DNA of 26,087 bases from a virus, in the IMG/VR virus record IMGVR_UViG_3300022853_001424, positions 1 through 26,087 of that record, one strand, 5' to 3'. The translations under genes were made by a program, and so were the position numbers. Shown piece after piece: positions 1,473 through 19,376 of the stretch. Below the pieces are notes generated by a model. It did no database searches. It was given only the letters and a program-made list of their open reading frames with translations, and was not told where the DNA came from. Positions within the stretch are counted from its first letter, which is position 1. Every line of letters begins with the position of its first letter.

Positions 1473-3014
1473 ATGGCATGGGATGACAATGCGTGGGCTG
1501 AATACGACGCCAAGAATCGGGCCCTGATCACCCCCTACCAGTTCCCGCATCACGGCTTGCACCGCCCGCGCAAACGGGTGCAGCCCATCTTGCGGCACCT
1601 CCCGCGCAGGCCGCTCTTCACTGGATTGATCGGATCCAATCTGTGGGACAACCTGCCGAAGCAGTGGCCGCATTTCGCGGCGCGAACAACAATTGCGTCT
1701 CAGGGGAAATACCTGCCCTTCATTCCCTGGGAGGTCCAGCTGGATCTGGTCCGAATGATTCGGAGCACCCAGAACGTTTACTGCCTGAAATCAAGGCAAA
1801 CCGGCGTTTCCGAAACGGTCATCAATTACATGCTGATGATGGCCATTGAAAACCCAGCTTGGGTGGGCATCGTTTTCAGCAAGACCGGCGAGGATGCGTC
1901 AGAGCTGGCGGCCCGCATCAAAGGCCAGGCGGCCAGCCTTGGTTCCTTCTGCCCGCCCCTGCCAAAGGATTCTGCCCGCAAGCTGCAATTCCTTGGCCGT
2001 GGATCGCTTCACTTTCTGCCGCCCACTGAACGAGCGGCCAGGGGAATCCCATCGGCCTCCATGGTCCTGTTCGATGAGGGCGCCTTCATTGAGAGGCTGA
2101 GCGGGATTGAAACCGGCGCCATGCCCACCCTGAGCCTCCTGGGCCCCAGGGCGCGGGCGGTGTGGGTCAGCACCCCCAACGGCCGCAGCGGCCGCTTCCA
2201 TGAGCACTGGACCACTGATCACGGCGAAATCCCGCTAGGGCCGGCCACGGTGAACGGGATTCCAACCCTGGCCCGTTCACCCGATGGTCAGTTCGGCAAG
2301 GTTGCGATCCACTGGAGCCAGCATCCAATCTTTGCCGCTGACCCTGACTACCAGGAGAAGACCAAGCGGAAGTTTCAGCTCACCCAGCAGCGCTACCAGC
2401 AAGAGTTTGAGCTCGACTTCACTGCCACCGATGCCGAGGTCTACCCGCACGAACTGATCGAGGCTGCTGAGGCCATCGGTGCCCTGGATGATCCAACCAG
2501 CGGGAACGTCTACGTGATCGGGATCGATCCCAACGGCGGCGCCGATGATGAGTTCGTGACCACGGTTCTGGACGTGACAGCCAGCCCCTGGCAGGTGGTG
2601 GCCCGGTTCAACGACTCGCGCCGCAGCAGGGATTACGGCCTGCAGCGCAGCGCCCGGCTGATTGACCAGTTCGCCCCGGAGCTGATCGTCATCGAGAAGA
2701 ACGGCGTGGGTGCTGCGGTGGCCGAGAGCCTGGCCCGGCTTCGCCCTGGATACCCGATCGAAGAGGTTGCCACCAGCCGGCCGTCGAAGGTCGCTATGAC
2801 CGATCGGGTGCTGCTGCTGCTGGAGCAGGGCGAGCTGGGCCTGCCGCCCAACGACATCTACGGGGAACAGATGCGAGTCTTCCGCCAGCACCCAGACGGC
2901 ACCCGCGAGGCCGCCGCTGGCGCGCACGATGATGCCGTGATGTCTCTGGCCATGGCCTGCGAGGCCGGCGCCCGCACCCGGCCGATGGTGGCCGAATGGG
3001 TCAACATGACCTAG
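1473..3014 (+). CDS. terL: Terminase large subunit (ATPase and nuclease)
   Basis: This is the motor that pumps phage DNA into the prohead and cuts the concatemer. The N-terminal ATPase has a Walker A-like loop, KSRQTGVS (about residues 106-113), a Walker B, MVLFDE (197-202), and a coupling motif, WVSTPNG (231-237). The C-terminal RNase H-like nuclease shows acidic residues in IGIDPNG (near 352), IVIEKNG (near 408) and HDDAVMS (near 483). The 513-residue length is normal for TerL. It starts at ATG 1473, just after the small subunit. It belongs to the Terminase_6-type large subunits. No frameshift or missing motif is apparent. Confidence 0.95.
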   Translation: MAWDDNAWAEYDAKNRALITPYQFPHHGLHRPRKRVQPILRHLPRRPLFTGLIGSNLWDNLPKQWPHFAARTTIASQGKYLPFIPWEVQLDLVRMIRSTQNVYCLKSRQTGVSETVINYMLMMAIENPAWVGIVFSKTGEDASELAARIKGQAASLGSFCPPLPKDSARKLQFLGRGSLHFLPPTERAARGIPSASMVLFDEGAFIERLSGIETGAMPTLSLLGPRARAVWVSTPNGRSGRFHEHWTTDHGEIPLGPATVNGIPTLARSPDGQFGKVAIHWSQHPIFAADPDYQEKTKRKFQLTQQRYQQEFELDFTATDAEVYPHELIEAAEAIGALDDPTSGNVYVIGIDPNGGADDEFVTTVLDVTASPWQVVARFNDSRRSRDYGLQRSARLIDQFAPELIVIEKNGVGAAVAESLARLRPGYPIEEVATSRPSKVAMTDRVLLLLEQGELGLPPNDIYGEQMRVFRQHPDGTREAAAGAHDDAVMSLAMACEAGARTRPMVAEWVNMT

Positions 3015-3438: not shown

Positions 3439-4320
3439 CTAGCGTCGAAAGGTGCTGAACAGGCCCAGCTGGTCGCTTTCCCTGCCCTCCAAGCGTTCTC
3501 GCAGGTTGATGAGCCCGGAACGGCTGAGGCCTTTGGCCTGCTCCAGGCCCAGCCCCATCCCTCTGGCCACCTCGGCGAAGGTTTCGCCGTCAAGGCGCCG
3601 CAGCATCACCTCTTGCTGTTGTGGCCAGGGCGCCAGGGCGCAGCTGACTGCCTGCAATTGCTGCTGTCGCCGTGTTGAGGCATTGTTTGAGCTCGCCTGA
3701 ATCGCTGTCAACAGCGTGTTGCTTTCGCTTTCGTCATCATTGATCAGGACATCCAGCGAGGCCTGCCTGTGGCAGGCTGCCGCCAGGGCCAGGGTCTGGA
3801 GGTCAGCAGGCGATAGATCCATCCCCGCCATTGCCTCTACATCGGTGGCCGGCCGGCCATGCTCAAGCTGGAACCGCTCCCGCCACTGCCGCAGCTGGTG
3901 CATCCGTTCGCTTCGCTTCACCGGCACCCTGATGCCGTTGGCGGAATGGATCAACCGGATCATGCTCTGCCGGATCCAAGGCACGGCATAGGTCGAGAAC
4001 TTGTAGCCGCGCATCGGGTCAAACTTTTCAACTGCTCGCGCCAGCCCGATCGAGCCCTCCTGGATCAGATCGGCGACATCCAGGGAGATGATGCCCGCGA
4101 CATTGAAGGAGCGGCTGCACGTCACGACCAGCCGCATATTCCGGGCCACCATCTGCTCGCGGGACCGCAGCCCTGAACGCTTCACCCGCAACGGGGCGTC
4201 AGCTGGCGACGGTGGCCAGTCTTGCCAGGCTCGAATGGCTCGGCCATGGATCAGTTGCTCTTCAAAGGAAGGGATTGGCAAGCGCGAGTACGCCTGTAGC
4301 TGATCGTCCAGCGAGCTCAC
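3439..4320 (-). CDS. Sigma-70 family RNA polymerase sigma factor
   Basis: The 293-residue protein has a short region 1.2-like start (LQAYSRLPIPSFEEQ), a full region 2 at about 57-127 (ARNMRLVV, DLIQEGSIGLARAVEKFD, YKFSTYAVPWIRQSM), region 3 at about 130-200, and a diverged region 4 at about 222-277 ending in an HTH. The region 2 core-binding and -10 recognition helices are well conserved, so it should bind host core polymerase. It resembles cyanobacterial group 2 sigma factors. It starts at GTG 4320; an in-frame stop lies six codons upstream, so no longer start exists. It is antisense to the packaging genes, between terL and the portal gene. It probably redirects the polymerase to phage promoters. 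Region 4 divergence suggests altered -35 or activator use. Confidence 0.9.
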   Translation of the reverse strand: MSSLDDQLQAYSRLPIPSFEEQLIHGRAIRAWQDWPPSPADAPLRVKRSGLRSREQMVARNMRLVVTCSRSFNVAGIISLDVADLIQEGSIGLARAVEKFDPMRGYKFSTYAVPWIRQSMIRLIHSANGIRVPVKRSERMHQLRQWRERFQLEHGRPATDVEAMAGMDLSPADLQTLALAAACHRQASLDVLINDDESESNTLLTAIQASSNNASTRRQQQLQAVSCALAPWPQQQEVMLRRLDGETFAEVARGMGLGLEQAKGLSRSGLINLRERLEGRESDQLGLFSTFRR

Positions 4321-4425: not shown

Positions 4426-6336
4426 TTGGCCATCGGATTCCTTCAGGATCAGGCGCCTGATTCCAACCGGATGGATGGGCCGCTGTTGAACGTGCTCACC
4501 GGCATGGGCACGTCCAACGACCGCAGCCAGGCCACTGGCATCCAGGGCGGCCGTGCTCTGGGCGAGGCAGAGATCAATGCGCTCTATGAGCAATCCTGGC
4601 TGCTCCGCCGGGTGGTTGAGAAGATTCCCATGCAGGGCACCCGCAGCGGCTGGGACCTAGGCCTGGGCGATGAAACCACCACCACCGAGCGCAGCAAGCT
4701 CGATGATCTGGTTAGTTGGACAGAAGAGCTGAAGCTGCCGCAGGCCGTGACCACTGCCGCCACCTACGCCCGCCTGTATGGCGGTGGTGCGCTGGTGGTG
4801 TTGGCGGATGATCGCACCCCCATCGACAAGCCGCTCAACCTCAAGCGGCTGCGCAGCATCAAGGGGTTCTACCCCATCGATCGCTGGAGGTTGTACCCGT
4901 CTGCAGGTTGGACGGGCATCGGTTCGCCTGAAAGCTATTGGTTTGAAACACAGCAGGATCGCGACCTGACGAAGGCTTCAGGCGATCCAGGCCTGGCTGA
5001 TGCGTTGCAGGTCGATATTCATGCCAGCCGCATCATCCGCTTTGAGGGCCTGCCCTGCAGCTGGCGCACCATGCAGTCGCGCCAATGGTGGGGGCTGTCG
5101 GTGGTCGATCTGTGCTGGGACGTGTTCAAAAGGTTCGAGACAGGCCAGCAGAGCGCCGCGGACATCTTGCATGATTTTGATCTGGTGGTTCACACCCTCC
5201 CGAACCTGCAGCGGATTCTGGACGCGGGCGGCGAGCAGAAGCTGCGCGAACGGCTGCGAGTCAACAGCATGGCCAGGTCTGTCTATGGGGCCTACGTCCT
5301 GGGCGAGGGCGAAACCCTGGCCAACCTCAGCCGATCAGCCGCAGGCATCGCCGACATCCTCGAAGGCCTGAAGGGCGAGATCACCGGTGCCTCAGGACTG
5401 CCCCACACCATTCTGTGGGGTGAAAGCCCCAGCGGCATGGGAGCAGATGGCCGCAGCGAGCAGGCCGCGTTTGGCAATGACGTGGCTGATTGGCAGGACC
5501 GCGATCTCCGGCCGCCCCTCCGCCGAGCGTTTGAGCTGGCCATGGCCTGCTCCGATGGGCCGTGGAAGGGGAAGGATCCACCGGAGAGCTGGGCGGTGGA
5601 GTTCCGCCCCAACTACACGCCAACAGAAGATGAGCAGGCTGATTTGCGCGGCAAGGTGGCCAACGCTGATGTTCAATACATCCAGGCCGGTGTGCTGTCG
5701 ACCAACGAGGTGGCGCTGGCCCGCTTCGGCAAGCCGCGTTTCAGCCTCACGACGACGTTGATCGATCGCGAGGAAGATGGCAGCCTTAAGCAGCCAGAGC
5801 CTCCGGCCGGCGCTGCTGGCGATGAATCCGAGATTGAGTTCGGCGAAAGCCTGGCCGAGCAGGAGGCCGATCCAGGCGGTGCCCCCCCTGATCCAGAGGA
5901 AGAGCCCCCCTCGAGCCGGGGTGATCAGGCTGACGCCTGCTGTGACGATTGCGAGGCCCGATCCCAGGAGCTCGCCCTTTCAATCACGGCGAACCGCCGC
6001 CGCCGCAAGCAGCGGAAGGACGCCCCGGCCATCCCCCGCGCTGACGCGGCCGGCGACGTGATCGAGCGCTGCGGGGTGAACATCCGAATTGATAGCCAGG
6101 GCCTCGGACGCATCCTTGCCCCCTATGGGCAGGAGCTGCCCCATCCGGTAGCGGTGGGCCCAGACATCAGCGGCGCCTGGGAGGTGTTTGAGCCATCGAC
6201 TGGCGCCTACCTCCTGGCGATCGGCCACCAGCACGTCCGCGGCATCCGCGATTCAATCGGGCCAGGCCCCACGATCCGGCAGATCGATGGCACTGATCTG
6301 GTGGCCCTGGGGGCCCGCTGTGACGCCTATTCCTGA
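4426..6336 (+). CDS. Phage portal protein (DUF1073 type) with C-terminal extension
   Basis: The portal is the dodecameric ring at the capsid vertex through which DNA enters and leaves. Residues 40-430 carry the features of the PF06381 (DUF1073) portals: SWLLRRVVEKIP, ARLYGGGALVVL, IKGFYPIDRWRLYP, the glycine-rich LPHTILWGESPSGMGADG loop, and a long helix before FRPNY. It starts at TTG 4426, just after an in-frame stop at 4402; ATG 4471 is the next option. A proline- and acid-rich linker (about 455-505) and an Arg-rich stretch lead to an extra C-terminal module (about 545-636) of unknown function, making it longer than most portals. Proteins with this fold are now often labelled Acb1-like at the N-terminus, but no 2H phosphodiesterase HxT/S pair is present. 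Confidence 0.92.
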   Translation: MAIGFLQDQAPDSNRMDGPLLNVLTGMGTSNDRSQATGIQGGRALGEAEINALYEQSWLLRRVVEKIPMQGTRSGWDLGLGDETTTTERSKLDDLVSWTEELKLPQAVTTAATYARLYGGGALVVLADDRTPIDKPLNLKRLRSIKGFYPIDRWRLYPSAGWTGIGSPESYWFETQQDRDLTKASGDPGLADALQVDIHASRIIRFEGLPCSWRTMQSRQWWGLSVVDLCWDVFKRFETGQQSAADILHDFDLVVHTLPNLQRILDAGGEQKLRERLRVNSMARSVYGAYVLGEGETLANLSRSAAGIADILEGLKGEITGASGLPHTILWGESPSGMGADGRSEQAAFGNDVADWQDRDLRPPLRRAFELAMACSDGPWKGKDPPESWAVEFRPNYTPTEDEQADLRGKVANADVQYIQAGVLSTNEVALARFGKPRFSLTTTLIDREEDGSLKQPEPPAGAAGDESEIEFGESLAEQEADPGGAPPDPEEEPPSSRGDQADACCDDCEARSQELALSITANRRRRKQRKDAPAIPRADAAGDVIERCGVNIRIDSQGLGRILAPYGQELPHPVAVGPDISGAWEVFEPSTGAYLLAIGHQHVRGIRDSIGPGPTIRQIDGTDLVALGARCDAYS

Positions 6337-7718
6337 TGGCTGATCGTTCCGTTGAACTGCTCGAGCATCTCGATCTGGAGATGCGTGGCCTGGAGGATCA
6401 GCAGCTCAAAAAGCTGCAGGGCATCTTCAACGAGGCCCTAAGCCGCACGATCCGCTCCCTGATCGACCGGCTGGAGAAGATCGACGCCCAGCCGATCTAC
6501 GATCCCAAGCGCACCCCAGGCGCCTTTCAAGGGTCAACGCCTGCAGGGCCCGAGATCATCACCCCGCTGCAAAAGAACCAGGCCAGCCTCTACCTCCAGG
6601 GCCAGCTGCTGCAGGATCTGCAGGTGATCATCGGTCGCTTCCCGCAGGACAAGGCCGCCGGCCGGGCCCTGGACACTGAACTGGTGGAGCTCTTCCGCCG
6701 CGCTCACGACCTGGGCAGCGAGTACGCCATTCAGCTCAGCCAGAACATGCTGGAGCCTGCGGCCAAGCTCTCGGCCACTCACCCGCTGATCACCCAGGCC
6801 GGCCAGGTGCCGCCGCCCGCAGCGCCTGCAGCACCAATCACCCCAGGCGGCGGCTACCAGGAAGGGCAGTCATTCACCCGGCTGGTCAACATCGGCGCAA
6901 CGGTCGCCGCCGCCGAGCGTGATTTCAAGAGCCTGTCGGAGAACTACCGCCGGCAGCGCGATGCAGCCACCAGTGAACGGGTGGTCGCGGCGAAGGATTA
7001 CTTCTATCGGTGGTGGCGTGACTGGGGCGATGCGGTGCAGGTGGAAACAGCCACCCAGCTGGCAACGGGCCTCGATAGCAGGGCGCTGGCCCGCACCCTC
7101 AAGGCAAGGCTGCCGAACATCAATGAGGCCTTCCGTAACCGGGCCGAGACAGTGGCCCGCACCGAAACCCACATCGCGGCCGGGGAGGCCAGAGAGCGCA
7201 CGTTCCGCCGGGTTGGAGCTGGCTTTGTGCGCTACATCACCACGGCAGACGATCGGGTGTGCGAATGGTGCGCTCCACGGATGGGTTGTTTATACTGGGC
7301 AGGCAGTATTAAGACGCCGATTCATCCAAATTGTCGTTGTGCATTGTCACCTATTACCCTTGAATCGCTGGTGATTCAGAATAGCTTAGCGGCCAAGGCG
7401 TCAGAGCGCTGGGAGCAGGAGCAGCAGGCCCTGGCTGCCGTCACCCGCACCAAGTATGAGCAGGCCAACAGCAGGCCATGGCGGCCAACCGGTGGAGGTG
7501 ACCAGCCAAGAGGCGCGGGCGATTTCCCGCTGATGGAGAAGACCAGCCTGCCGGCCACCCAGCGGCGCCGTGGGCCCGGTGCAGCGGTGGCGAATGCTGG
7601 CGCGCAGGCATGGCCTGCAGGCGATCCGGTGTGGGCTCCTGGGCGGGGCTGGCTGGATCAGGGGGCCCGGGTGGCCTATGAAGCGATGGTCAGAGAGGTT
7701 GCTGAGATAGCGGAGTGA
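6336..7718 (+). CDS. Head morphogenesis protein, phage Mu gpF-like
   Basis: The stop of the portal gene and this ATG share one base (TGATG), implying coupled translation. The C-terminal half has the Mu F family signature: an ARTETHIAAGEARE helix (about 273-286), TTADDRVCEWCAP (about 302-314) and IHPNCRC (about 329-335), a Cys/His set likely to bind metal. Such minor head proteins sit at the portal vertex and help assemble the procapsid. The N-terminal half is helical with a Pro/Ala-rich linker near 155-170. A patch at 7286-7385 covering the HPNCRC motif has about 43 % GC with A/T-ending codons, unlike the rest of the gene. The last 29 bases overlap a convergent tiny gene. Confidence 0.9.
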   Translation: MADRSVELLEHLDLEMRGLEDQQLKKLQGIFNEALSRTIRSLIDRLEKIDAQPIYDPKRTPGAFQGSTPAGPEIITPLQKNQASLYLQGQLLQDLQVIIGRFPQDKAAGRALDTELVELFRRAHDLGSEYAIQLSQNMLEPAAKLSATHPLITQAGQVPPPAAPAAPITPGGGYQEGQSFTRLVNIGATVAAAERDFKSLSENYRRQRDAATSERVVAAKDYFYRWWRDWGDAVQVETATQLATGLDSRALARTLKARLPNINEAFRNRAETVARTETHIAAGEARERTFRRVGAGFVRYITTADDRVCEWCAPRMGCLYWAGSIKTPIHPNCRCALSPITLESLVIQNSLAAKASERWEQEQQALAAVTRTKYEQANSRPWRPTGGGDQPRGAGDFPLMEKTSLPATQRRRGPGAAVANAGAQAWPAGDPVWAPGRGWLDQGARVAYEAMVREVAEIAE

Positions 7719-7842
7719 CCACCTTGAGCGCAAGGGAATCATCTGGCAGGTGGATTTCGGCGAAACTTTTTTCAAGTTGTGCGTAACCCTTAAATCTCGC
7801 AGTTGTTTCTTCATCCATAGCTGTAGAGGGTGGTAAGGGCAT
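7690..7842 (-). CDS. Small leftward gene with conserved phage leader (50 aa)
   Basis: The frame reads MPLPPSTAMDEETTARFKGY and ends PLSQQPL before TGA at 7690-7692. It is called because its ATG (7842) is preceded by CCACCGCTCCCCACAC, the leader that precedes most small genes of the leftward block, and an 11-bp hairpin lies 13 bases further upstream, as at the other copies. It is hydrophilic and acidic in the middle, with no recognisable domain, and less GC-rich than its neighbours. It is the last gene in the leftward direction in this block and overlaps the head morphogenesis gene's end by 29 bases in a convergent arrangement. Function unknown; an anti-defence or regulatory peptide is only a guess. 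Confidence 0.6.
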   Translation of the reverse strand: MPLPPSTAMDEETTARFKGYAQLEKSFAEIHLPDDSLALKVVTPLSQQPL

Positions 7843-7871
7843 GTGTGGGGAGCGGTGGCTGTTGAGGTGGC

Positions 7872-7898
7872 GAACCTGTAAGCCCCCCTTACAGGTTC
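7872..7898 (-). repeat. Perfect 11-bp hairpin upstream of leader
   Basis: GAACCTGTAAG (7872-7882) and CTTACAGGTTC (7888-7898) are perfect inverted repeats around a five-base loop. On the minus strand this hairpin would lie in the 5' leader of the 50-codon gene, a few bases before the conserved pyrimidine-rich motif. Other copies of the motif have a hairpin in the same place. Confidence 0.85.
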
Positions 7899-7902
7899 AA
7901 GC

Positions 7903-7942
7903 TTCCCCAATAAAGGAAGCGGTCATTTCCTTTATTGGGGAA
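7903..7942. repeat. Perfect 16-bp inverted repeat
   Basis: TTCCCCAATAAAGGAA (7903-7918) and its exact reverse complement (7927-7942) flank an eight-base loop. The stem is long and perfect but has no T-run on either strand, so it is not a standard intrinsic terminator. It could stabilise the 3' end of the methyltransferase transcript, bind a protein, or mark a recombination scar. Confidence 0.85.
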
Positions 7943-8022
7943 TCGCCTTCAGGGCTTGGCAAGCTCGCGCTCAAAAGCGGCAACGCATCGGCAATCTTCG
8001 GCGTGAGCCAGCAGCAGATCGC

Positions 8023-8085
8023 TTTGCTCACCGGAAAATTAGGAGCGCAGCGAGTAATTTTTCCGAGTGCAGCAACTTGTTAAGT
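8023..8085 (-). repeat. Imperfect inverted repeat, attC-like, at the methyltransferase 3' end
   Basis: TTTGCTCACCGGAAAATTA (8023-8041) pairs imperfectly with TAATTTTTCCGAGTGCAGCAA (8055-8075), leaving single unpaired bases in one arm. Just outside, GTTAAGT (8079-8085) fits the integron core GTTRRRY and contains the methyltransferase stop codon, as in gene cassettes. The matching RYYYAAC on the other side is missing, so this is at best a degenerate attC. Confidence 0.35.
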
Positions 8086-9246
8086 GCTTTTGGGTTTGAG
8101 AACACGAAAAATGGATTGCCCGACTTTTTTCCCAAGCTCAGCAGGGACTGCATTTCCAAGTTGGCGCATTACTTCACCCCAAGAGCCTTCAAAGTCAAAG
8201 TCATCAGGAAATGTTTGAATTCTAGCGCTTTCACGAACAGTAAAGTAACGAACACTTCCATCTTCAAAACGAATCATATTCTCGCCTCCCGGAATACCAT
8301 GCCCTCCAGCCTTCAACGCCTTGGAAGGCTCGTCAATATAACTGCCTGTATGGCCGGGATAGATTTTGGCACCACCTTTAAAAACATGATGGTTAAATTC
8401 ATTAGCTTTTTTAGATTCAGGGTTAGGGAGATCTGAAATGGCATCGCGAACTGTGACCCATGGCTCCAACTCCGGTTCAAACATTCCATATTTTTGCTTT
8501 AACCTTTCTACTCTATTCTCTGTTTTTTCGTCCATTTTTGAGCATTGAACTTTATGCTTTTTCCAGTATTCTTTTGTAACCCATTTACTCCAGAGCAAAG
8601 CGTCCTCGGAGTGTGTTGACTGAGGAAACGACCAGTTTGCATCAACGTCTGACCTGAAACCAACGATAAATACCCGCTCTCTTTTTTGAGGGACGCCATA
8701 GTCTGCTGCATTTACAAGACGATACAATACGTTATATTCGAGATCTGCATACTTATTCTTAGTATGGTGTTTCTCTAATCGCTCTCGATGCTTTTCCCAT
8801 TCTTCATTCCTTTTCTTTTCTATCGAGGGATATTGCAATTGTAATACTATATATTCAAAATATTCGAAAAAGCTTTTTCTCAACAAGCCTTTTACATTTT
8901 CAAATACGAATGCTCTTGGTTTTTTCTCTCTAATAGCCCTAACGGCTTCTGGAAACATATCTCTGGCGTCATCGTGGCCATTCGCTTTGCCGCCAAGGGA
9001 GAAAGGCTGGCAAGGTGGCCCACCTGATATTAATTCTATTGTTTCTGGTACGCTTAAATAATCGAACTTGGTTACATCACCTTCATATACTCCAGCCCCC
9101 CGAGTAAGCAATTTATTTGCTCTTAGAGTTCGGCAAGCATCTTTGTTAAATTCAACTACTGCCTTTGGAGTAAAGCCGGCGCTGTGAAGCCCTAACGCTA
9201 ACCCACCTGCACCTGCGAACAATTCAATTGAAGACATTTTAGCCAT
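8080..9246 (-). CDS. DNA C5-cytosine methyltransferase
   Basis: The 388-residue enzyme transfers a methyl group from SAM to C5 of cytosine in a specific DNA site. The motifs appear in the usual order: ELFAGAGGLALGL (I, 8-20), GGPPCQPFS with catalytic Cys79 (IV), ENVKG (VI, 116-120), QKRERVFIVG (VIII, 187-196), a target recognition region (about 200-335), RESARIQTFPD (IX, 338-348) and QLGNAVP (X, 362-368). All are intact, so it should be active. No nuclease gene lies beside it, so it is probably a solitary methylase that protects phage DNA. It is clearly AT-richer than its surroundings, indicating recent acquisition. A copy of the phage leader lies about 40 bases upstream rather than at its start, as if the gene had been inserted behind it; AAGAAGG at about 9259-9265 may serve as its ribosome-binding site. 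Confidence 0.95.
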   Translation of the reverse strand: MAKMSSIELFAGAGGLALGLHSAGFTPKAVVEFNKDACRTLRANKLLTRGAGVYEGDVTKFDYLSVPETIELISGGPPCQPFSLGGKANGHDDARDMFPEAVRAIREKKPRAFVFENVKGLLRKSFFEYFEYIVLQLQYPSIEKKRNEEWEKHRERLEKHHTKNKYADLEYNVLYRLVNAADYGVPQKRERVFIVGFRSDVDANWSFPQSTHSEDALLWSKWVTKEYWKKHKVQCSKMDEKTENRVERLKQKYGMFEPELEPWVTVRDAISDLPNPESKKANEFNHHVFKGGAKIYPGHTGSYIDEPSKALKAGGHGIPGGENMIRFEDGSVRYFTVRESARIQTFPDDFDFEGSWGEVMRQLGNAVPAELGKKVGQSIFRVLKPKST

Positions 9247-9267
9247 TATCTAATTAACCTTCTTAAC

Positions 9268-9299
9268 ATTGTAACTAGCGATTTCTGGAGAGCGGTGGG
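9268..9299 (-). promoter_or_regulatory. Displaced leader copy and TACAAT box before the methyltransferase
   Basis: The leader copy CCCACCGCTCTCCAG lies at 9285-9299 (minus-strand reading), followed by TACAAT (9268-9273), which could be a -10 box for the methyltransferase. No -35 box is evident. Elsewhere the leader touches the start codon; here 38 bases separate the two. Confidence 0.5.
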
Positions 9300-9333
9300 A
9301 CGTGGCCGGGCAAGCCCCGACGGGCTGTTGGTG
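9285..9333 (-). repeat. Intercistronic element, copy 1
   Basis: On the plus strand this copy runs from ctggagagcggtggg to gggctgttggtg. It matches 9500-9549 along its length. The centre forms a CGGG-CAAGC-CCCG hairpin. Confidence 0.75.
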
Positions 9334-9334
9334 G

Positions 9335-9496
9335 TCAGTCGGTCCAACGGGCCCATTCATCGGGATCGGGGAAAGCCTCATCGTTTTCGCCAAACATGAG
9401 CACCCTGTTGTATGCAGCGATCTCGGCGGTGGTCAGGCCTTCATAGGGCTGTTTGCCCGCGGCGTAGTTGGCGTTCACTTTGTCTTTGGCGGTCAT
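9335..9496 (-). CDS. Small acidic protein of the leftward block (53 aa)
   Basis: The frame is open further upstream, but ATG 9496 is chosen because the leader CCCACCGCTCCCCAGC ends two bases before it. The product, starting MTAKDKVNANYAAGKQPYEG and ending DPDEWARWTD, is acidic at its C-terminus and rich in aromatic residues. It has no membrane segment and no recognisable domain. It is the last small gene before the methyltransferase. Acidic small phage proteins are sometimes DNA mimics or inhibitors, but nothing here shows that directly. Confidence 0.6.
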   Translation of the reverse strand: MTAKDKVNANYAAGKQPYEGLTTAEIAAYNRVLMFGENDEAFPDPDEWARWTD

Positions 9497-9499
9497 CAG

Positions 9500-9549
9500 C
9501 TGGGGAGCGGTGGGGCAAGTGCCAGACAAGCTCTGGCGGGCTGTTGGTG
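9500..9549 (-). promoter_or_regulatory. Conserved leader plus hairpin, intercistronic element copy 2
   Basis: The motif at 9499-9514 (minus strand CCCACCGCTCCCCAGC) ends two bases before ATG 9496. The hairpin CCAGA-CAAGC-TCTGG lies just upstream. Compared with the copy at 9285-9333, both stem arms differ in a compensating way while the loop is unchanged, which supports a conserved RNA structure. No purine-rich ribosome-binding site is present. Confidence 0.7.
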
Positions 9550-9741
9550 TCAGGCAAAGCGGCCGGCCACGTTCCAATCAGGGTTTGGTTCGCCAGCCCT
9601 GCGGTAGTTTTCTTCAAACAGAGCATTCAGATTGCGAGCACCCAATCCTTGATGGCTTCGACAAATAAAGATTGCGCCTTCAATTGCGTGGTTGCTCATT
9701 GAATCAAGGTTGTAATCAAGGGCGATAAAAGCTGCGGGCAT
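9550..9741 (-). CDS. Small leftward protein of unknown function (63 aa)
   Basis: It starts at ATG 9741, one base after a full copy of the leader, and ends at the edge of the next intercistronic element. The product has a hydrophobic start (MPAAFIALDYNLDSM) and a middle reading AIFICRSHQGLGARNLNALF, which looks like a compact alpha/beta fold rather than a membrane segment. No family is recognised. Its start region (9739-9804) is repeated almost exactly in front of the 55-residue gene at 18865-19032, so the two genes are probably regulated together. Confidence 0.65.
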   Translation of the reverse strand: MPAAFIALDYNLDSMSNHAIEGAIFICRSHQGLGARNLNALFEENYRRAGEPNPDWNVAGRFA

Positions 9742-9804
9742 GGCTGGGGAGCGGTGGGGCGCGAAGGCCTCTCGCCTTCATTCATATTGTAGCACGTTGC
9801 TAAC
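9739..9804 (-). promoter_or_regulatory. 66-bp start cassette: operator, -10 box, hairpin, leader (copy A)
   Basis: Read leftward it holds GTTAGCAACGTGCTAC (9789-9804), TACAAT (9786-9791), a GAAGGC/GCCTTC hairpin (9763-9779), the leader (9743-9758) and the ATG. It matches 19030-19095 at 65 of 66 positions. The operator-like site overlaps the stop codon of the upstream gene. Confidence 0.8.
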
Positions 9805-10048
9805 AGCAGGGATTATTCTCTTCCGCCCATTCCGCTGCCTCTTGCTCTGTCGCAAAAGGCCCAGCCCAGGTAACGATGCTGGCTTGCTCTCCCAACGGGC
9901 CGAGCGGGTGCCTGCGGAAAAAGCTGGCGCCTTGCTTCTGGATTGCTACCGCGTCAAGACCGTCCGCCAGGTCACCCCAGAAAAGGATGGCCGCTATCCA
10001 GCCATCAGGAGCAAGGCCTACATCTTCCGCCCAGCTGGCTTTGGTCAT
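9800..10048 (-). CDS. Leftward accessory protein, unknown (82 aa)
   Basis: It starts at ATG 10048, which overlaps the TGA of the upstream gene by four bases (ATGA), so translation is coupled. Sequence such as GWIAAILFWGDLADGLDAVAI, and a C-terminal region with TEQEAAEWAEE, suggest a small soluble alpha/beta protein. It ends in two cysteines (NPCC). Its stop codon lies within the operator-like site of the next gene. I do not recognise the family. Confidence 0.65.
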   Translation of the reverse strand: MTKASWAEDVGLAPDGWIAAILFWGDLADGLDAVAIQKQGASFFRRHPLGPLGEQASIVTWAGPFATEQEAAEWAEENNPCC

Positions 10049-10428
10049 CGCTGGAGGCCTTCGGCGGTGGACACCTGCCGGTCGAGCAGCTCCGCCAGAA
10101 CAAGGTCGCCATCTTGTCTTGGTACGTTCTCCCAGCGGTGGCCTTCCATCCGCCAGAACACGATCAAGGGCATCGCGTCGCGCATCGCCAGGATGTCTTC
10201 CAGCTTCATGTCCATCGACCAGTCAGTGACTGGTATCAGCAGCCGCCAGCCCGCCACTCCCCCGACAACGTGCTTCGCCAGGGAGGGCGAGCTGCAGGCC
10301 AGTTGGATTGGCCACCCGTAGACATCAACTCGATCGGGGAAAGTGCTGCAGCGAACGCCGATGATCACGCCGGGCTTTCCCCAAGCAACGGACGCGATCA
10401 GGGGCCTCTGAGATTTCAATGGCATCAC
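10045..10428 (-). CDS. Leftward accessory protein, unknown (127 aa)
   Basis: Start GTG 10428 or the adjacent ATG 10425; the ATG is equally likely. It lies 27 bases after the upstream gene and has no copy of the conserved leader, so it is probably read as part of the same transcript. The N-terminal half is beta-rich with several tryptophans (VAWGKPGVIIGVRC, VDVYGWPIQLAC, VAGWRLLIPVTDW), followed by a helical part (MKLEDILAMRDAMPL) and a charged end. It forms a translationally coupled pair with the 82-residue gene that follows, which suggests that the two products act together. Confidence 0.65.
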   Translation of the reverse strand: MMPLKSQRPLIASVAWGKPGVIIGVRCSTFPDRVDVYGWPIQLACSSPSLAKHVVGGVAGWRLLIPVTDWSMDMKLEDILAMRDAMPLIVFWRMEGHRWENVPRQDGDLVLAELLDRQVSTAEGLQR

Positions 10429-10455
10429 ACGGTTACCGACAATTTGGAGCGGCGC

Positions 10456-10821
10456 TCACGCCAACGCACTTCTGACCTGTCGCCGGCTGATGCCCAGGTG
10501 CCTTGAAATGCGGCGCTGGCTCCAGCCATCACTGAACAGCAGGGCTACGATCGAAACGGCCGAGTTTTGAACTGTCAAGCCTGGCTTGACAGTTGGAACC
10601 TCTGGCCCAACTACCGAGGATTCCTCGGCAGTTGAAATCTTGAGCCCAGTTGCCCCTGTGAGCGTGTGCGGGTGTGCCCAGGCAGCCAGCCAGTCGTTCA
10701 GCCTGTGGACGGCCTCGCCCAGGCTGTAGCCGGCGACGTAGGCCACCACAGCAACGGCGGCGATAGCGCGGATGGTCGCTTCAATGCTTTGGCCCCAATC
10801 GGCCTTGATCATGTCTTTCAT
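10456..10821 (-). CDS. Membrane-anchored protein with C-terminal HTH (121 aa)
   Basis: ATG 10821 follows a full copy of the leader by three bases. The N-terminal region (about 15-37, AIRAIAAVAVVAYVAGYSLGEAV) is hydrophobic enough for one membrane helix. A Ser/Thr/Val-rich linker follows. The last 28 residues contain a resolvase-type HTH (DGWSQRRISRHLGISRRQVR). A membrane helix joined to a DNA-binding HTH in 121 residues is unusual; it could tether DNA or sense the membrane state. No enzyme domain is present. Confidence 0.65.
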   Translation of the reverse strand: MKDMIKADWGQSIEATIRAIAAVAVVAYVAGYSLGEAVHRLNDWLAAWAHPHTLTGATGLKISTAEESSVVGPEVPTVKPGLTVQNSAVSIVALLFSDGWSQRRISRHLGISRRQVRSALA

Positions 10822-10824
10822 TTC

Positions 10825-10840
10825 GCTGGGGAGCGGTGGG
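10825..10840 (-). promoter_or_regulatory. Conserved pyrimidine-rich leader
   Basis: Minus-strand CCCACCGCTCCCCAGC followed by GAA and ATG. A GC-rich self-complementary stretch (about 10847-10857) lies immediately upstream. No Shine-Dalgarno sequence is present. Confidence 0.7.
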
Positions 10841-10913
10841 ATTTGCCGGCGGCGCCTGTAGCGCGCTCAGCGGCCACACCATAGCCCAGAAAATGCGATC
10901 CGCCAGCTGCTGC

Positions 10914-11066
10914 TCACGTCATTTCCCGGCGGATCAGCGGCCGCGTTGTCGTTGGCCGCGTTTGGCCCTGGCGGGCCCCCTCGCGGCGGATCGCGTCCTG
11001 CTCTGCTGCGCTCAAACGCACATAGGCCGGCCGGCGCAAGGCAAAGCCGTCTTCTGCCAGAGTCAA
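10914..11066 (-). CDS. Small basic protein (50 aa), coupled to the upstream gene
   Basis: The chosen start is TTG 11066, which overlaps the upstream stop in a TTGA arrangement. A longer version from 11117 would overlap the secreted protein gene by 55 bases. The product, beginning LTLAEDGFALRRPAYVRLSA, includes SAAEQDAIRREGARQGQ and a basic Thr/Arg-rich end. It reads like a small helical, nucleic-acid-binding peptide, but no family is recognised. Confidence 0.45.
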   Translation of the reverse strand: MTLAEDGFALRRPAYVRLSAAEQDAIRREGARQGQTRPTTTRPLIRREMT

Positions 11067-11380
11067 AGCGCCTGCCCTTTCGAGGCCTGGTAGGCGCGCA
11101 CCAGCTCCCGGCCGCACAACTCGGCGGTGGCGTTGGCGGCAAGCCGGCCGAAGTCTGGGTCACGGGTGGACGAGCCCCAGAGGCTGCGCACCCCGTCAAC
11201 GCCCAGCACCATGGCCCGGGAGAAGGGGACGCCGGCTCGCAGCGCTTGGCAGGTCACAATGGCCGTGTGCCAGGCAGCCGTGACGGGATCAGCCTTGCTC
11301 ACCGGCATCAGGCCAATGGCGGCACCAAGGCCCAAGGCGGTGAGGTTGATCAGGATCAGGGTCGAGGTGGATGGTTTCAT
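11063..11380 (-). CDS. Exported small protein with signal peptide (105 aa)
   Basis: ATG 11380 is chosen because a variant of the leader (CCCTCCCCAGCGAA) ends directly before it; a longer frame from 11422 would read through that leader. Residues 1-30 form a typical signal peptide: a short polar start, a hydrophobic core (LILINLTALGLGAAIGLM), and a likely cleavage after VSKA. The mature part is helical, with two cysteines that could form a disulfide. It is first in this leftward block, so the whole block may be read from the promoter just upstream. A periplasmic role, such as superinfection exclusion, is possible but unproven. Confidence 0.65.
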   Translation of the reverse strand: MKPSTSTLILINLTALGLGAAIGLMPVSKADPVTAAWHTAIVTCQALRAGVPFSRAMVLGVDGVRSLWGSSTRDPDFGRLAANATAELCGRELVRAYQASKGQAL

Positions 11381-11383
11381 TTC

Positions 11384-11462
11384 GCTGGGGAGGGACACGG
11401 CCGAAATTGTAGCCGCTTCCATAGCTCACGTGTATCATTCGTTGGCACTTGCCTGATTCGCA
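11384..11462. promoter_or_regulatory. Divergent promoter region
   Basis: This short gap separates the leftward exported-protein gene from the rightward 87-residue gene. On the minus strand it has TACAAT (11406-11411) and a variant leader (11384-11397). On the plus strand, TATCAT near 11432 could be a -10 box for the rightward gene. No good -35 box is seen for either. Confidence 0.4.
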
Positions 11463-13391: not shown

Positions 13392-15595
13392 AGAGCTCTG
13401 ACGGCCTGCGGAATCGCCTGGCGGCCGTGGAAGCGTTGCTGCCAGTCCGGGACCACCCCGGTCCCAGCCCGGCCCCTCGATGGGACCATGCCGATCAGGT
13501 GAGCTTGCTGGTGCAGCAAGTCATGGCGGAGGCCAGGCCCGGGGCGTTGGTGCTGGATTGGCAGCTGGCGCCGCGTGGCGTGGTGGCAGGGCGGATGGCT
13601 GTGGACGGCCTGCTCTACCGGTTTCGCTGCGATGCTGACGTGGTGGCGTTTCGCCCGGCGTGGGACGGGGTGAATGAGCGCAGCTGGGAGATCCGATCTG
13701 ATTCGTTTCTGCAGCTTCGGGCCCCTGAACAGCGCCTGGATTTTCGTGGCGGCGCGGTGCGGGCGGGGAAGAAGTGCAGCGTTGGCTATGGCTGCGGGAA
13801 CAAGTGCATCACGGTGCGGAAGGAGTGCCTGGTCAGGCCAGGCAGTGCGATCGGGAAGGGTCGCCTGAAGAGGCTGCTGGCCCTGGCTGCTGGAGGTGAT
13901 AAAGCCGCGGCCGGCGCGGCCCAGCGGGTGACTGCCGGCCGTGGGTCCAAGGCGGCAGAGCTGCGTCAGGGGCGCAATGTGAAGCGGCTGGAGGCCTTGC
14001 TGCAGCGGCCTGAGATTGCCGAAATGGTGCGGACCGGCAAGGTGCCCGAGAGCAAGCCAAAAGCTGGCGCTGTGCGCGACCTGTCGCCGGATGAGATCGA
14101 GTTTGATCCTGCGCGCTTCCAATACAAGATCAAAGCGACAGCGACCACCGGGGAGGTGGGAAGCCTTTCGGGCGTGAAGAAGTGGGCCCCGAACCTGGCG
14201 GGGGTGATCAGCGTCTGGCAGGACGCCGATGGGAAGACCTACGTGGTCAATGGTCACAACCGCCTGGCCCTGGCCCGCCGCCTGGGCGCCGAGGCGGTGA
14301 CCGTGAGATACCTGGACGCCCCGACCGCGAAGGACGCCCGGGCGATCGGCGCCATGCAGAACATCGCCGAGGGCGCCGGCACACCAATGGACGCGGCGAA
14401 GTTTTTCCGGGATACCGGCATTCAAACGCCTGCTGACGTAGAGGCCCGTGGGTTGCCGCTTAACAGCGGCCAGGCGGATAAGGGCCTGCGGCTCAGCAAG
14501 CTGCCCGATGACGTGTTCAAGGCGGTGGTGGATGGTGATCTGAGCATCAACCGCGGGGCGATCATCGGCGGCTCTGGCCTGGAGGCAGGCAAGCAGCAGG
14601 AGATTTTCAAGATGGTCAGCAGCCGGCGGGGGATCACCGACAAGACCCTGAGCGAGCTGGTGGATCACGCCCGCATCAGCGAGCAGCAGACCCAGACCAC
14701 CTTCGACCTGTTCGGTTCAAGCGAGGTGTCAAAGAGCAACCTGATCACCCGCGCCAAGCTCTCGGCAGGCCTGAAATCGAAGATCAGCCGAGAGAAGCGG
14801 CTATTTGGCACGGTCAGCAAGGCCCGATCAGCGGCCTCGTTGACGGAGAAAGCCGGGAACGTGATCAATCAGGAGGCCAGCAGCAGGGTGACCGCCGAAG
14901 CCGGGCAGGCGCTGCAGGTGTTCGAGCAACTCAAGAGCACCGCCGGCCCGATCAGCACCGCGCTGAACCGGGCAGCTGATCGGGTGGAAGCAGGAGAACC
15001 AGAGAGCGAAGTGCGCAAAGAGCTTGAATCTGACGTGTTCGCCGCGGTGGAGTTTGAGCTGGAGGCCGTTGGCCTGCGCCCGCGTAAAAGCGCCTTTGAC
15101 CGGGCCGATGGCGATTCGGCCGACTATTACCGCAACAACCCAGAAGCAAGGGAGAAAAAGAATGCTCTGCAGCGAAAGATCAACCGCCGCCCAGATCGGC
15201 TTTGGACGGAGCGGCGGCGGCGCGGAATGGCTGGCCAAGGTGGCCCGGATCTGAGCCACACGGAAGATGATCGGCTGATCAAGGAAGACCCCAAAGCGAA
15301 CCGGGCCCGTAATGGCCACGACGGCCGCAGCACCAAGCGGGCTGACAGCCTCCAGGAGCGGATTGATCGAGCGAAGGCAAAAGCGCCCCCTGGCCAGATG
15401 GGGCTGTTCGGTGCTGCCGGCGGCGGCAATGACATCCCCTGCGGGGCTTCGCACATCAGCCGGGCCAAGACTTGCCGGATTACGTCAGGAGCTCCGGCAG
15501 CACCGGCGCCAGCCGTGAAGGCTGAGAAGGCCGCGGCCACCACGGCCCCACCACCTTCTCCCCTGCAGCTTCCCGCTCCGCCAGCTCCAGGTTGA
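13388..15595 (+). CDS. ParB-like domain protein with Cys motif; 3' end probably replaced
   Basis: A multi-domain phage protein of 735 codons. Near residues 127-146 it has a compact four-Cys motif (KKCSVGYGCGNKC, then KEC). Residues 230-345 look like a ParB/DdrB-like domain: LSPDEIEFDP, then VNGHNRLALARRLGAEAVTV, then AMQNIAEGAGTPMDAAKFF. Such domains occur in phage polyvalent or virion-associated proteins. The rest is helical, with a Lys/Arg-rich region (about 590-690) and a second Cys motif, CGASHISRAKTC (about 682-693). The last ~38 residues (Ala/Pro-rich) are the complement of the restriction enzyme's 3' end, so the native C-terminus probably ended or continued near 15480 and was cut by that insertion. 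Confidence 0.75.
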   Translation: MKSSDGLRNRLAAVEALLPVRDHPGPSPAPRWDHADQVSLLVQQVMAEARPGALVLDWQLAPRGVVAGRMAVDGLLYRFRCDADVVAFRPAWDGVNERSWEIRSDSFLQLRAPEQRLDFRGGAVRAGKKCSVGYGCGNKCITVRKECLVRPGSAIGKGRLKRLLALAAGGDKAAAGAAQRVTAGRGSKAAELRQGRNVKRLEALLQRPEIAEMVRTGKVPESKPKAGAVRDLSPDEIEFDPARFQYKIKATATTGEVGSLSGVKKWAPNLAGVISVWQDADGKTYVVNGHNRLALARRLGAEAVTVRYLDAPTAKDARAIGAMQNIAEGAGTPMDAAKFFRDTGIQTPADVEARGLPLNSGQADKGLRLSKLPDDVFKAVVDGDLSINRGAIIGGSGLEAGKQQEIFKMVSSRRGITDKTLSELVDHARISEQQTQTTFDLFGSSEVSKSNLITRAKLSAGLKSKISREKRLFGTVSKARSAASLTEKAGNVINQEASSRVTAEAGQALQVFEQLKSTAGPISTALNRAADRVEAGEPESEVRKELESDVFAAVEFELEAVGLRPRKSAFDRADGDSADYYRNNPEAREKKNALQRKINRRPDRLWTERRRRGMAGQGGPDLSHTEDDRLIKEDPKANRARNGHDGRSTKRADSLQERIDRAKAKAPPGQMGLFGAAGGGNDIPCGASHISRAKTCRITSGAPAAPAPAVKAEKAAATTAPPPSPLQLPAPPAPG
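13768..13835 (+). repeat. Cys-motif module, copy 1
   Basis: 68 bases with 7 mismatches to 25728-25795, in the same frame. Encodes KKCSVGYGCGNKC and what follows inside the ParB-like protein. Confidence 0.85.
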
Positions 15596-18233
15596 GATCG
15601 AGCAGGTTGCTGAGGATGTCTTCGTTGGCCTTCCAGCCATAGGCCTTCAGCACCAAAGCATCGAGCGCTTGATGGAGCTTGGCAAGCTGGCTGGCGGGTT
15701 CGTTGAAGTAGGCGTTGTAGAGGTCGGTGATGCCCCAGTTCCGCGCCACCATCACCTCGTTGCGGTAGTCGTTGAGGGCTGTCATCGCCTGGCGGATCTG
15801 CTGCACCAGCTCAGGCGTGACGATCTGAGGGAAGGGGAAGGTCTCGAATATAGAGTCGTGGGTGTAGGCGATGTCGCCCTTGAGGGTGCCTTTCTGCGCG
15901 TGCATCCAGATGCGGTGTACGGAGGAAGTCAGCAGGCCCACAATATAGAAATCATAGCTGGCGAGCACGACATTCTTTTCTCCAGGCAGCCAATCCTTCT
16001 GGAATGGAATGAAAACAGCCCACTTGGAAACTCGGGGAACGGCAAAGTAACTTTTCAGTGGTTCGATAGCTGCCCGCATCGCTGGTCGTTTCTCCCCATA
16101 CCGCCACCAGTTCACCCGCGTGGTTTCGCGGCGGTTCTCCATGCGCTGGGGCCTCACCAGGTCTTTCACTTGCCGAAAGGGCTCGGCATAGGCTTCCGCC
16201 ACTTCCAGTGTGAGATCGTTGAAGTCGATGATCCAGCGGTCGGGCTGCCCCAAAGGACGCTTCGCCAGGTTGGTGCCCATCGAGAACGGCTTGACCACCT
16301 CGGCGTTCCTTGGATCAGCAGCCAACCACTCCGCCGCTGTCGCAGGGTCAACGTTGAAACCCTTGCCCACCGGAATCACCCCCTGAAAGCAATAGCCCTT
16401 GTTTGCCACCAAGGCACTGGCTTCACTCACATCCACGGTTGAGCGCAAACTGGTGTTGATGGTGGAAACATCCTCTCCATCCAGCCGGTAACTACCCGCA
16501 GCATCGCGGCTCCAGTTCACGATGCTCACGTGCACGTGGGCCTCCCCGGACCACGGCTGGGTTGAGATCGCCGCATGGATGTGACCGCCGTTGTCGCGGA
16601 TGTAGTCGAGGGAGGCCCGGCGGCTCTTGCCATGGCGAATCGAGTTGGTGGCTACCAGCCCAGCCCGGCCGTCGGGCTGGAGGTTGTCGTGGGCCAGCCG
16701 GAACCAGTAGGTGCAGAAGTCCACGCTGTCGTGCACCTCGGGGAACCGCTGAAAGACCCGCTCGACGTACTCATCCCCGAGGTTGAGCCGCATGTGTTTC
16801 CCACCCAAGAACGGCGGGTTCCCCACATATGCATCGGCCTCCGGCCAGGGGATGAACAACGCATCTGCGACCCTGATGTTTGCGTCGAGGTTGTCGAGGG
16901 GTAGATCCCGTTCTGTAAGCCCCAGGCGATCGTTGGCCACCTTGCGGGCAATCATCAGCGTCACCCGTGCCAGCTCCACCGCGAACGGGCTGGTGTCCAT
17001 GCCGAAGAACTGCAGTGGCGTCACCAACCCCAGCACTGCCTGGACCTTCTTCGCCTCTGAACTGCGGCGTTCAGCGATGCGCCGCAGGATCGTGACTTCC
17101 AGGTCCTTGACGGCGTTGTAGCCCATGTAGAGGAAGTTCCCGGAACCACAGGCCGGATCGCAGACGCGGTACTGCGTCAACGCCTGCCGTAGGCCCTCCA
17201 GCTCAGCGATGCTGCTGGCCTGCGCGACCCGCTCTTCCCACGGCTCAACGATCGTGGGCCGGATGATCTGCAGCATGTCCACCTCACTGGTGAAGTGCTG
17301 GCCGTGGGCGTGGCGGGTGGCGTCATCGCTGCTGGCTTCGAAGATGTTGCCAAAGATGCTGGGCCGCACCCGCTGCCAATTCTCCTCGGCGCTGGCGCTC
17401 AGCAAATCCAGCTCATCGGAGAGCAGCTCAAGCCTTGGGATGTGGGAGAAAAGCCCGCCGTTGAAGTAGGGCGTTCCCCGGAACTGCCCGCCGGGGGTGG
17501 TGCCGGGGGTGTTCATCTCACCGAACAGGTAGCCGAGCACGTCGTAGCTGCTCTGCCCCCCCCGACAGGCATCAAGAGCCTGGGTGAACTGCAGATTCGG
17601 CAGCAAGCCCCGATCCTCAGCGAACAGGCTCAGAACGCACTGGAGCACGAACCGCTGGGCCTCCAAGGCCGTGAAATCGCCGCTCTTCTCGCCCCGCTTG
17701 CGCAACCGACCGAACAGCTCCCCCATGCTCCGGGCCTGAGCTTCAGTTACCTCGATCTGGTTGAGGCCGAAGTGGACCGGCTGCTCAGTCTTGCTGAGGA
17801 AGGCCAGAGACGACGATTGGCTAGCCAGATCCTCCACCCGCAGCTTGACCAGGGGCTCATCCACCAGCTGGTTGAAGTCGTAAACCCACAGCTCATCGAA
17901 GTTGCTAAGCACCGAATAGTCCGGCTTGGGTGCGAGGTAGATCCAGTAGCGCTGCAGTTGCGGGAAGTGGGGCTCCAGAGCTTTGCCCCGGCTCTTCATC
18001 TCGATCAGAACCGTGGCCCGTGTTCCCTCGATCAGGGCGTCCGCCTTGCCCATGCCACCGGCCAGGCTGCCCTTGGGAATCTTGCGCTCGAAAGTGGTGC
18101 CCGCCTCTACAGAGTCAGCCCAGCCCCATGCCTGCAGCAGCCGATTCACGTAGGTCTGGGCCTCGCTGTCCTCATCCCCACGGATCGAGGCCACCCAGTG
18201 GGCGAAGTTCTGCAGGGCCTGGGGGGTGCTCAA
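15480..18233 (-). CDS. MmeI-like type IIL/IIG restriction-modification enzyme
   Basis: A single protein that both cuts and methylates DNA. The N-terminal nuclease has a D-x12-E-x-K signature (Asp65, Glu78, Lys80 in KADALIE and VLIEMKS). A helical spacer follows (about 150-290). The adenine-N6 methyltransferase has SAM motif I, DPACGSGNFLY (359-369), and catalytic motif IV, NPPFLGG (472-478). The C-terminal third (about 600-890) would be the target recognition and final helical domains. The 917-residue length matches MmeI (about 920). It starts at TTG 18233; CTG 18248 is the only alternative before a stop. The last ~25 residues look atypical and may come from host-gene sequence. It lies antisense in the structural cluster, probably as acquired defence cargo. 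Confidence 0.92.
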   Translation of the reverse strand: MSTPQALQNFAHWVASIRGDEDSEAQTYVNRLLQAWGWADSVEAGTTFERKIPKGSLAGGMGKADALIEGTRATVLIEMKSRGKALEPHFPQLQRYWIYLAPKPDYSVLSNFDELWVYDFNQLVDEPLVKLRVEDLASQSSSLAFLSKTEQPVHFGLNQIEVTEAQARSMGELFGRLRKRGEKSGDFTALEAQRFVLQCVLSLFAEDRGLLPNLQFTQALDACRGGQSSYDVLGYLFGEMNTPGTTPGGQFRGTPYFNGGLFSHIPRLELLSDELDLLSASAEENWQRVRPSIFGNIFEASSDDATRHAHGQHFTSEVDMLQIIRPTIVEPWEERVAQASSIAELEGLRQALTQYRVCDPACGSGNFLYMGYNAVKDLEVTILRRIAERRSSEAKKVQAVLGLVTPLQFFGMDTSPFAVELARVTLMIARKVANDRLGLTERDLPLDNLDANIRVADALFIPWPEADAYVGNPPFLGGKHMRLNLGDEYVERVFQRFPEVHDSVDFCTYWFRLAHDNLQPDGRAGLVATNSIRHGKSRRASLDYIRDNGGHIHAAISTQPWSGEAHVHVSIVNWSRDAAGSYRLDGEDVSTINTSLRSTVDVSEASALVANKGYCFQGVIPVGKGFNVDPATAAEWLAADPRNAEVVKPFSMGTNLAKRPLGQPDRWIIDFNDLTLEVAEAYAEPFRQVKDLVRPQRMENRRETTRVNWWRYGEKRPAMRAAIEPLKSYFAVPRVSKWAVFIPFQKDWLPGEKNVVLASYDFYIVGLLTSSVHRIWMHAQKGTLKGDIAYTHDSIFETFPFPQIVTPELVQQIRQAMTALNDYRNEVMVARNWGITDLYNAYFNEPASQLAKLHQALDALVLKAYGWKANEDILSNLLDLNLELAEREAAGEKVVGPWWPRPSQPSRLAPVLPELLT

Positions 18234-19032: not shown

Positions 19033-19095
19033 GGCTGGGGAGCGGTGGGACGCGAAGGCCTCTCGCCTTCATTCATATTGTAGCACGTTGCTAAC
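19030..19095 (-). promoter_or_regulatory. 66-bp start cassette (copy B)
   Basis: Contains the operator-like site GTTAGCAACGTGCTAC (19080-19095), TACAAT (19077-19082), the GAAGGC/GCCTTC hairpin, the leader (19034-19049) and ATG. It differs from copy A (9739-9804) at one base. Confidence 0.8.
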
Positions 19096-19334: not shown

Positions 19335-19376
19335 TGTGCTGGGGAGCCTTTCCACTCACCGTAGCACTTTGCTAAC
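19335..19376 (-). promoter_or_regulatory. Third operator-like site and short leader
   Basis: GTTAGCAAAGTGCTAC (19361-19376) differs at one base from the two other copies. TACAAT is replaced by TACGGT, so this site lacks the -10-like box and might act as an operator within an operon. The leader is reduced to GGCTCCCCAGC. Confidence 0.65.

Follow-up and report, generated by a model that had tools for sequence, protein, structure and literature searches.

Why do unrelated small genes of one phage begin behind the same short sequence, with hardly a Shine-Dalgarno (SD) sequence among them? The question is raised by IMG/VR virus record IMGVR_UViG_3300022853_001424, a linear fragment of 26,087 bases that is called the window throughout, where the 16-mer CCCACCGCTCCCCAGC recurs within a few bases of ATG codons on the minus strand. 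The explanation that we favour, with a probability of roughly 0.55, is that this motif would be the 3' leader of a modular translation-start junction, in which a hairpin would insulate an SD-free, unstructured leader and the small genes would be swappable. The users of the junction are a group of uncultured, mostly cyanophage-like phages.

An earlier note on this DNA had listed eight copies of the leader, and reading the sequence directly, together with a mismatch search, found all of them in place (Table 1). Seven of the eight end shortly before an ATG on the minus strand, with gaps of 4, 2, 1, 3, 3, 1 and 3 nt, and the exception, at 9285, precedes a methyltransferase gene. Four copies are exact, two carry mismatches (9284-9299 with two, 7844-7859 with three), CTCCCCAGCGAAATGAAA is common to the copies at 11384-11397 and 10825, and the partial copy at 19338-19348 reads GCTCCCCAGC. 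With up to three mismatches allowed, the window holds 7 matches against a shuffle mean of 1.08 (0 of 100 shuffles reached 7); one of the 7, at 22587-22602, lies on the other strand and is probably due to chance. An ATG starts 1-4 nt past a random minus-strand point with a chance of 0.053, which for seven of eight gives about 9e-9 if the copies are independent, a value that overstates the evidence because the copies are repeats. An SD-like match is absent at six of the seven ATG starts and present (AAGG) at the short copy at 19338. The idea that these genes start without ordinary SD recruitment is borne out to this extent, whereas no meaning was found in the likeness of the motif to the anti-SD sequence. 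Pairing of the 16-mer with 16S rRNA was discarded as a candidate, its complementarity being at chance level.

The boundaries first drawn around the leader were too narrow, for every intercistronic copy lies at the 3' end of a hairpin element of about 55 nt. Two such copies occur in the window, each in an element that extends from the stop codon of the gene upstream to the following start codon and consists, in order, of CCCACGGCCC, a 6-bp hairpin (consensus GCCGGA-GCCYA-UCCGGC) and a C-rich, G-poor leader ending at the ATG; in the second of them (9280..9334) the next start is that of the methyltransferase, 30-40 nt further on. A hidden Markov model seeded with five intercistronic copies led to 18 distinct aligned elements and to a covariance model, R1. 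They run from the stop codon of a small gene to the following gene's start and comprise unpaired ACCCCCACGGCCC, a 6-bp stem closed by a loop of some 5 nt, AACCCATCCCAYYGC and an end that varies. In this alignment 92.6% of the stem cells are paired, a figure that leans towards the named stem because the structure was derived from the same sequences, and 11 cells are double-changed; 0 of 500 shuffles equalled this, and sliding the stem partners lowers pairing to 14-47%. Among 130 distinct aligned elements 99.4% of the stem cells are paired, with 27 double-changed cells, and only the inner pair (A-U in 101, G-C in 26, G-U in 2) is informative there because the alignment is model-fitted and most outer pairs were fixed by the search. 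In the 18-element alignment G-U cells are roughly as frequent as A-C cells, so that covariation alone cannot separate RNA from single-stranded DNA.

Searching 970 kb of relatives with R1 gave 24 matches at E<1e-6, and in 775 kb of contigs from unrelated phages nothing scored at E up to 1. A pattern with the core fixed and the inner pair left free found the hairpin core in 111 IMG/VR stretches, including contigs unrelated to the window's phage: 31 of 108 contigs hold a homologue of one of the tested window genes, and 7 of 108 share a different terminase. Of 106 usable copies, 90.6% have, 5-12 nt upstream, a stop codon that closes an open reading frame (ORF) of 40 codons or more; an ATG opening an ORF of that length lies 34-60 nt downstream of 91.5%. 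Stop and start occur together at 82.1% of copies on the sense strand; the antisense strand gives 0.9%, and randomly chosen sites give 1.1%. In 50,697 annotated phage records nothing matched at E up to 1, and 386 cyanobacterial genomes likewise held no match. The Rfam covariance models gave no hit at the gathering threshold in 4 sources, nor did two short stretches yield one even at E up to 5; a limited keyword search found no published description of the element, an earlier one under another name being possible. A host origin of the leader was rejected, as ACCGCTCCCCAGC stands near an ATG in only 3 of 400 Cyanobiaceae genomes and an R1 match in 2 of 400.

The composition of the leader points towards the start of translation. 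In most copies the stretch after the hairpin is C-rich (49%), G-poor (7%) and devoid of an SD sequence, and at SD-less starts G drops to about 2% at -20 to -13. The start region of the SD-less junction genes is also predicted to be less folded than other AUGs, with a mean of -1.8 kcal/mol for 78 starts against -8.55 kcal/mol for other ATGs of the same contigs, which are arbitrary ATGs and not confirmed gene starts. Genes without an SD sequence initiate in unstructured regions (PMC3121790), and cyanobacterial genes offset the missing SD by unstructured start regions (PMC6847405). The junctions resemble such starts in lacking an SD sequence in locally unfolded RNA, and differ in that no conserved sequence or structural motif was found there, while a verbatim leader and a defined hairpin recur here. 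This comparison argues for the role at the level of RNA or translation that had been proposed from the motif.

As a leader the 16-mer keeps its link to starts, but comparison of the phages shows it to be one variant of the 3' leader, and verbatim copies of it precede unrelated genes in the window's lineage. Most relatives lack it and carry other leaders, and elements of other phages carry still others, true SD sequences included. SD-like leaders were found in 22 copies, often with AGGAGGACAACATG directly after the stem, and none of the contigs concerned has a homologue of the tested window genes; in a further phage (L460) the hairpin is followed by CATCGCTCCCCAGCCATG. In one group of contigs (L497, L537, L473, L491, L500, L541, L493), which share a terminase unrelated to the window's, the hairpin stands mostly directly before AGGAGG. 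The window's clade includes a second lineage (G002, G003, G004) where the motif again precedes small genes, with most copies on the structural-gene strand, before different genes, between terminase and sigma gene. Among the matches listed, the exact 16-mers of IMG/VR and GTDB that belong neither to the window's virus (L017, L025, L031, L037) nor to its relatives (L024, L026, L033) are single and mostly not before an ATG. Another recurrent sequence of the relatives, GCTCCCCAGCGACATG (G407, G409, G001 at 28979, and others), was discarded as a leader, since it appears inside a gene coding in another frame, judged from translations and from a conserved ORF across it. In four relatives (G409 8497, G413 23211, G416 18557, G004 1850) a conserved 51-aa ORF begins behind another C-rich leader, GCTCCCCACCCCCATG.

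The leader does not occur behind the element hairpin only. Upstream of the 16-mer at 9743 and 19034 in the window, and at G004 9950, G416 9545 and L383 3285, we found promoter-like sequence with unrelated hairpins, and therefore leader and element hairpin are separable modules. At both window sites a TAGCAACGTGCTA inverted repeat and TACAAT lie upstream; the copy at 19034, with a hairpin at 19054-19070 and the inverted repeat at 19081-19093, is near-identical to that at 9743. The motif set described from the window is indeed tied to starts, but this promoter- or operator-like sequence behind part of it had been overlooked. The inverted repeat TAGCANNNTGCTA stands before three leader genes (9790-9802, 19081-19093, 19362-19374), with the -10-like TACAAT adjoining at two, and a Cro/C1-type helix-turn-helix (HTH) gene (19379-19627) lies beside it; it is likely a repressor operator.

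The genes around the junctions are shuffled. We took the 132 junctions flanked on both sides by a gene of at least 40 aa, and counted 76 upstream and 69 downstream families in 116 junction types. Among the recurrent families (those seen twice or more), 25 of the 28 upstream ones join at least two different partners, as do 22 of the 26 downstream ones. This lends comparative support to the alternative of the earlier note, that accessory genes may be exchanged behind a constant site. It also raises the strongest rival to a translation-start junction, namely that the element could be primarily a DNA-level exchange site, a counterpart of the PeSLs of T4, persisting because junctions promote recombination, with translation secondary. 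Besides the shuffled neighbours, several cases fit it: blastn homology between G002 and G003 starts exactly at the first base of the 16-mer, in L535 one gene start occurs twice, each time after the same junction, and at a G004 copy without an ATG the following gene looks deleted, because the sequence after the leader resembles, by eye, the end of the G003 gene behind the same leader. The element at 9280 is followed by the methyltransferase in place of a small gene, and the low G+C content of this gene, at a junction, suggests a recent acquisition. Exchange alone, however, leaves the strict orientation, the compensatory stem changes and the G depletion unexplained. Sharing one neighbour raises element similarity only slightly, so that neither a cassette unit nor a junction part travelling with a gene was resolved, and a tyrosine integrase scored above the curated cut-off in 0 of 12 records, which may be fragments, with one weak match in G408. 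We consider a primarily DNA-level site possible but doubtful.

Considering position, covariation, leader composition and shuffling together, we infer that translation starts at the junction, with insulation by the hairpin and recombination between junctions. Ribosomes would start on the unfolded leader without an SD sequence, the hairpin would keep the leader from folding with the upstream gene and would separate two translation units, and recombination at near-identical junctions could insert, delete or swap one small gene, which would remain expressible because each junction carries its own start signal. In the window's lineage the leader CCCAYCGCTCCCCAGC would have been copied verbatim before unrelated genes, also behind promoter-like sequence with other hairpins. 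A bolder and rather unlikely extension would be a phage-specific cassette system, in which a near-invariant RNA-hairpin junction in unrelated uncultured phages would join tiny swappable genes (some with an AcrF31 domain) with their own starts, and a dedicated factor, with no integron-type integrase, would promote both expression and exchange.

Several points weigh against the insulated-leader explanation. Translation and exchange are both read from sequence comparison; the junction start codons are ORF predictions, and the folding contrast carries the limit of its arbitrary controls. Single elements fold no better than their own shuffles, and the copies at 10825, 11384 and 19338 have no element hairpin. 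The hairpin also precedes true SD leaders in an unrelated phage group, and is therefore not specific to SD-less initiation. Moreover, an unstructured, G-poor leader needs no verbatim 16-mer, so that the exact repetition of the 16-mer may stem from recent copying or from a specific binder, and the near-invariance of the unpaired ACGGCCC and the GCCYA loop suggests recognition by some factor. A candidate RNA-binding factor dedicated to the element would explain these conserved unpaired bases. This leads to a second rival, in which an RNA-binding protein or a small RNA, from phage or host, would bind the element and control the small genes jointly as a regulon. The near-invariant bases recur across phages with unrelated terminases and the leader is verbatim behind different promoters, as such a site would have it, yet no candidate binder was found, the stretches tested have no Rfam match, and most relatives use other leaders in place of the 16-mer; we regard joint control of this kind as improbable. 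At the same time, the early transcripts of T7 are processed into single-gene messages, and the hairpins, one per junction in the arrays of small genes, might likewise be sites at which a polycistronic transcript is cut into stable single-gene messages, but this reading meets a short stem of 6 bp and a near-invariance unexpected for a structure-only nuclease site, and is very unlikely.

The element resembles parts of known systems, the SAS/ESAS and the T4 PeSLs, and is a member of neither. In anatomy the nearest published analogue is SAS/ESAS of cluster K mycobacteriophages (PMC3203893), where a short conserved sequence precedes the starts of many non-structural genes by a few nt, for the most part in a single orientation; an inverted repeat lies upstream of about half of the SAS copies, and SAS is common to different gene families and essentially absent from the hosts. 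Shared with it is a conserved sequence within a few nt of the starts of several gene families, in one orientation. However, SAS is a 13-bp sequence, GGGATAGGAGCCC, with the SD core AGGAG before the start (PMC3203893), whereas the leader here is CCCAYCGCTCCCCAGC, lacking an SD-like match at most window starts, and the two sequences are unrelated. RNA pairing of the ESAS repeats is unsupported according to the authors (PMC3203893) and later work reads promoters in ESAS (PMC11373665), whereas the stem here covaries and the intercistronic copies begin at a stop codon.

In evolutionary effect the T4 PeSLs seem nearest, to judge from the account in PMC4503421 of Arbiol 2010 and Comeau 2014, which describes an early promoter with a terminator-like stem-loop in T4-type phages. 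On that account both are small intergenic stem-loop modules tied to the shuffling of small genes between phages, and the elements here differ in having no U-run and, in the window, no promoter-like match nearby. An intrinsic terminator was rejected, with a T-run or U-run after the stem in 0 of 153 elements, and a scan for sigma-70 type promoters found no promoter-like site near the intercistronic window elements. Integron attC sites, too, are folded and conserved and lie between the small genes of an array, but the element here also carries the start leader of the next gene; attC itself (RYYYAAC / GTTRRRY) was rejected, as the GTTRRRY core occurs in 0 of 153 elements and the 12 records scanned held no tyrosine integrase above the cut-off.

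If the favoured explanation holds, many uncultured phages would plug small accessory genes into arrays through one standard junction, which would mark where to seek new host-takeover or anti-defence genes, because the downstream proteins mostly match no known family. Their median length is 87 aa, and few of the 74 scanned against Pfam (73 family representatives and one further copy) gave a match, with single members of the AcrF31, SSB, helicase C-terminal domain and HTH families. The L454 protein is a second AcrF31 match (E 2e-11), with relatives recurring in L501, L521 and L535; at the level of sequence these matches mean a shared domain and are no demonstration of anti-CRISPR activity. The junctions would furthermore form a natural testable set of SD-free starts, in which the two functions come apart, since one hairpin precedes SD and non-SD leaders alike.

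Table 1. Features of the window and cassette genes of other contigs (minus strand shown as -).
Feature	Position	Strand	Remarks
Terminase	1473-3011
Sigma-like factor	3442-4320	-
Portal	4426-6333
Head morphogenesis protein	6336-7715
Partial leader copy CCACCGCTCCCC	7847-7858	-	4 nt before ATG; hairpin 7872-7898 upstream
C5-cytosine methyltransferase	8080..9246	-	41.8% GC; behind second element
Second element	9280..9334	-	53-aa gene stop, hairpin 9305-9321, leader 9285-9299; R1 50.1 bits, E 2e-7
Leader copy in second element	9285-9299	-	2 mismatches; before methyltransferase
53-aa cassette gene	9335..9496	-	no family
Complete element	9494..9550	-	63-aa gene stop, unpaired ACCAACAGCCC, hairpin, leader, 53-aa gene ATG; R1 56.8 bits, E 9e-9
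Exact 16-mer in complete element	9499-9514	-	2 nt before ATG of 53-aa gene
Hairpin of complete element	9521-9537	-	GCCAGA-GCTTG-TCTGGC
63-aa cassette gene	9550..9741	-	no family
Exact 16-mer, promoter-type copy	9743-9758	-	1 nt before ATG of 63-aa gene; behind hairpin 9763-9779 and inverted repeat 9790-9802 with TACAAT
121-aa gene, C-terminal HTH	10456..10821	-	homologues directly upstream of element in G409 and G413
Exact 16-mer	10825-10840	-	3 nt before ATG of 121-aa HTH gene
Variant copy TGTCCCTCCCCAGC	11384-11397	-	3 nt before ATG; read directly
Exact 16-mer	19034-19049	-	1 nt before ATG of 55-aa gene
Short copy GGCTCCCCAGC	19338-19348	-	3 nt before ATG of 74-aa gene; inverted repeat 19362-19374 upstream
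Head maturation protease	19677-20954
Major head protein	21616-22557
AcrF31-domain cassette genes	L448:2142-2477, L454:771-971
Close relatives of AcrF31-domain cassette gene	L501:3396-3596, L521:5311-5511, L535:2339-2539

By terminase, the nearest annotated phages are cyanophages at about 29% identity, and a close terminase was found in 0 of 400 Cyanobiaceae genomes. Two near-identical records, G001 (54.6 kb) and G005 (26 kb), extend the window's virus, which forms a clade with about 40 further IMG/VR records at 73-80% terminase identity. Antisense between the structural genes, at 15483-18233 on the minus strand, the window encodes a 917-aa MmeI-like restriction-modification protein with Pfam MmeI domains. 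Finally, within positions 1-300, the ORF at 17-1048 was seen on reading to open with a near-perfect tandem repeat of about 150 bases.

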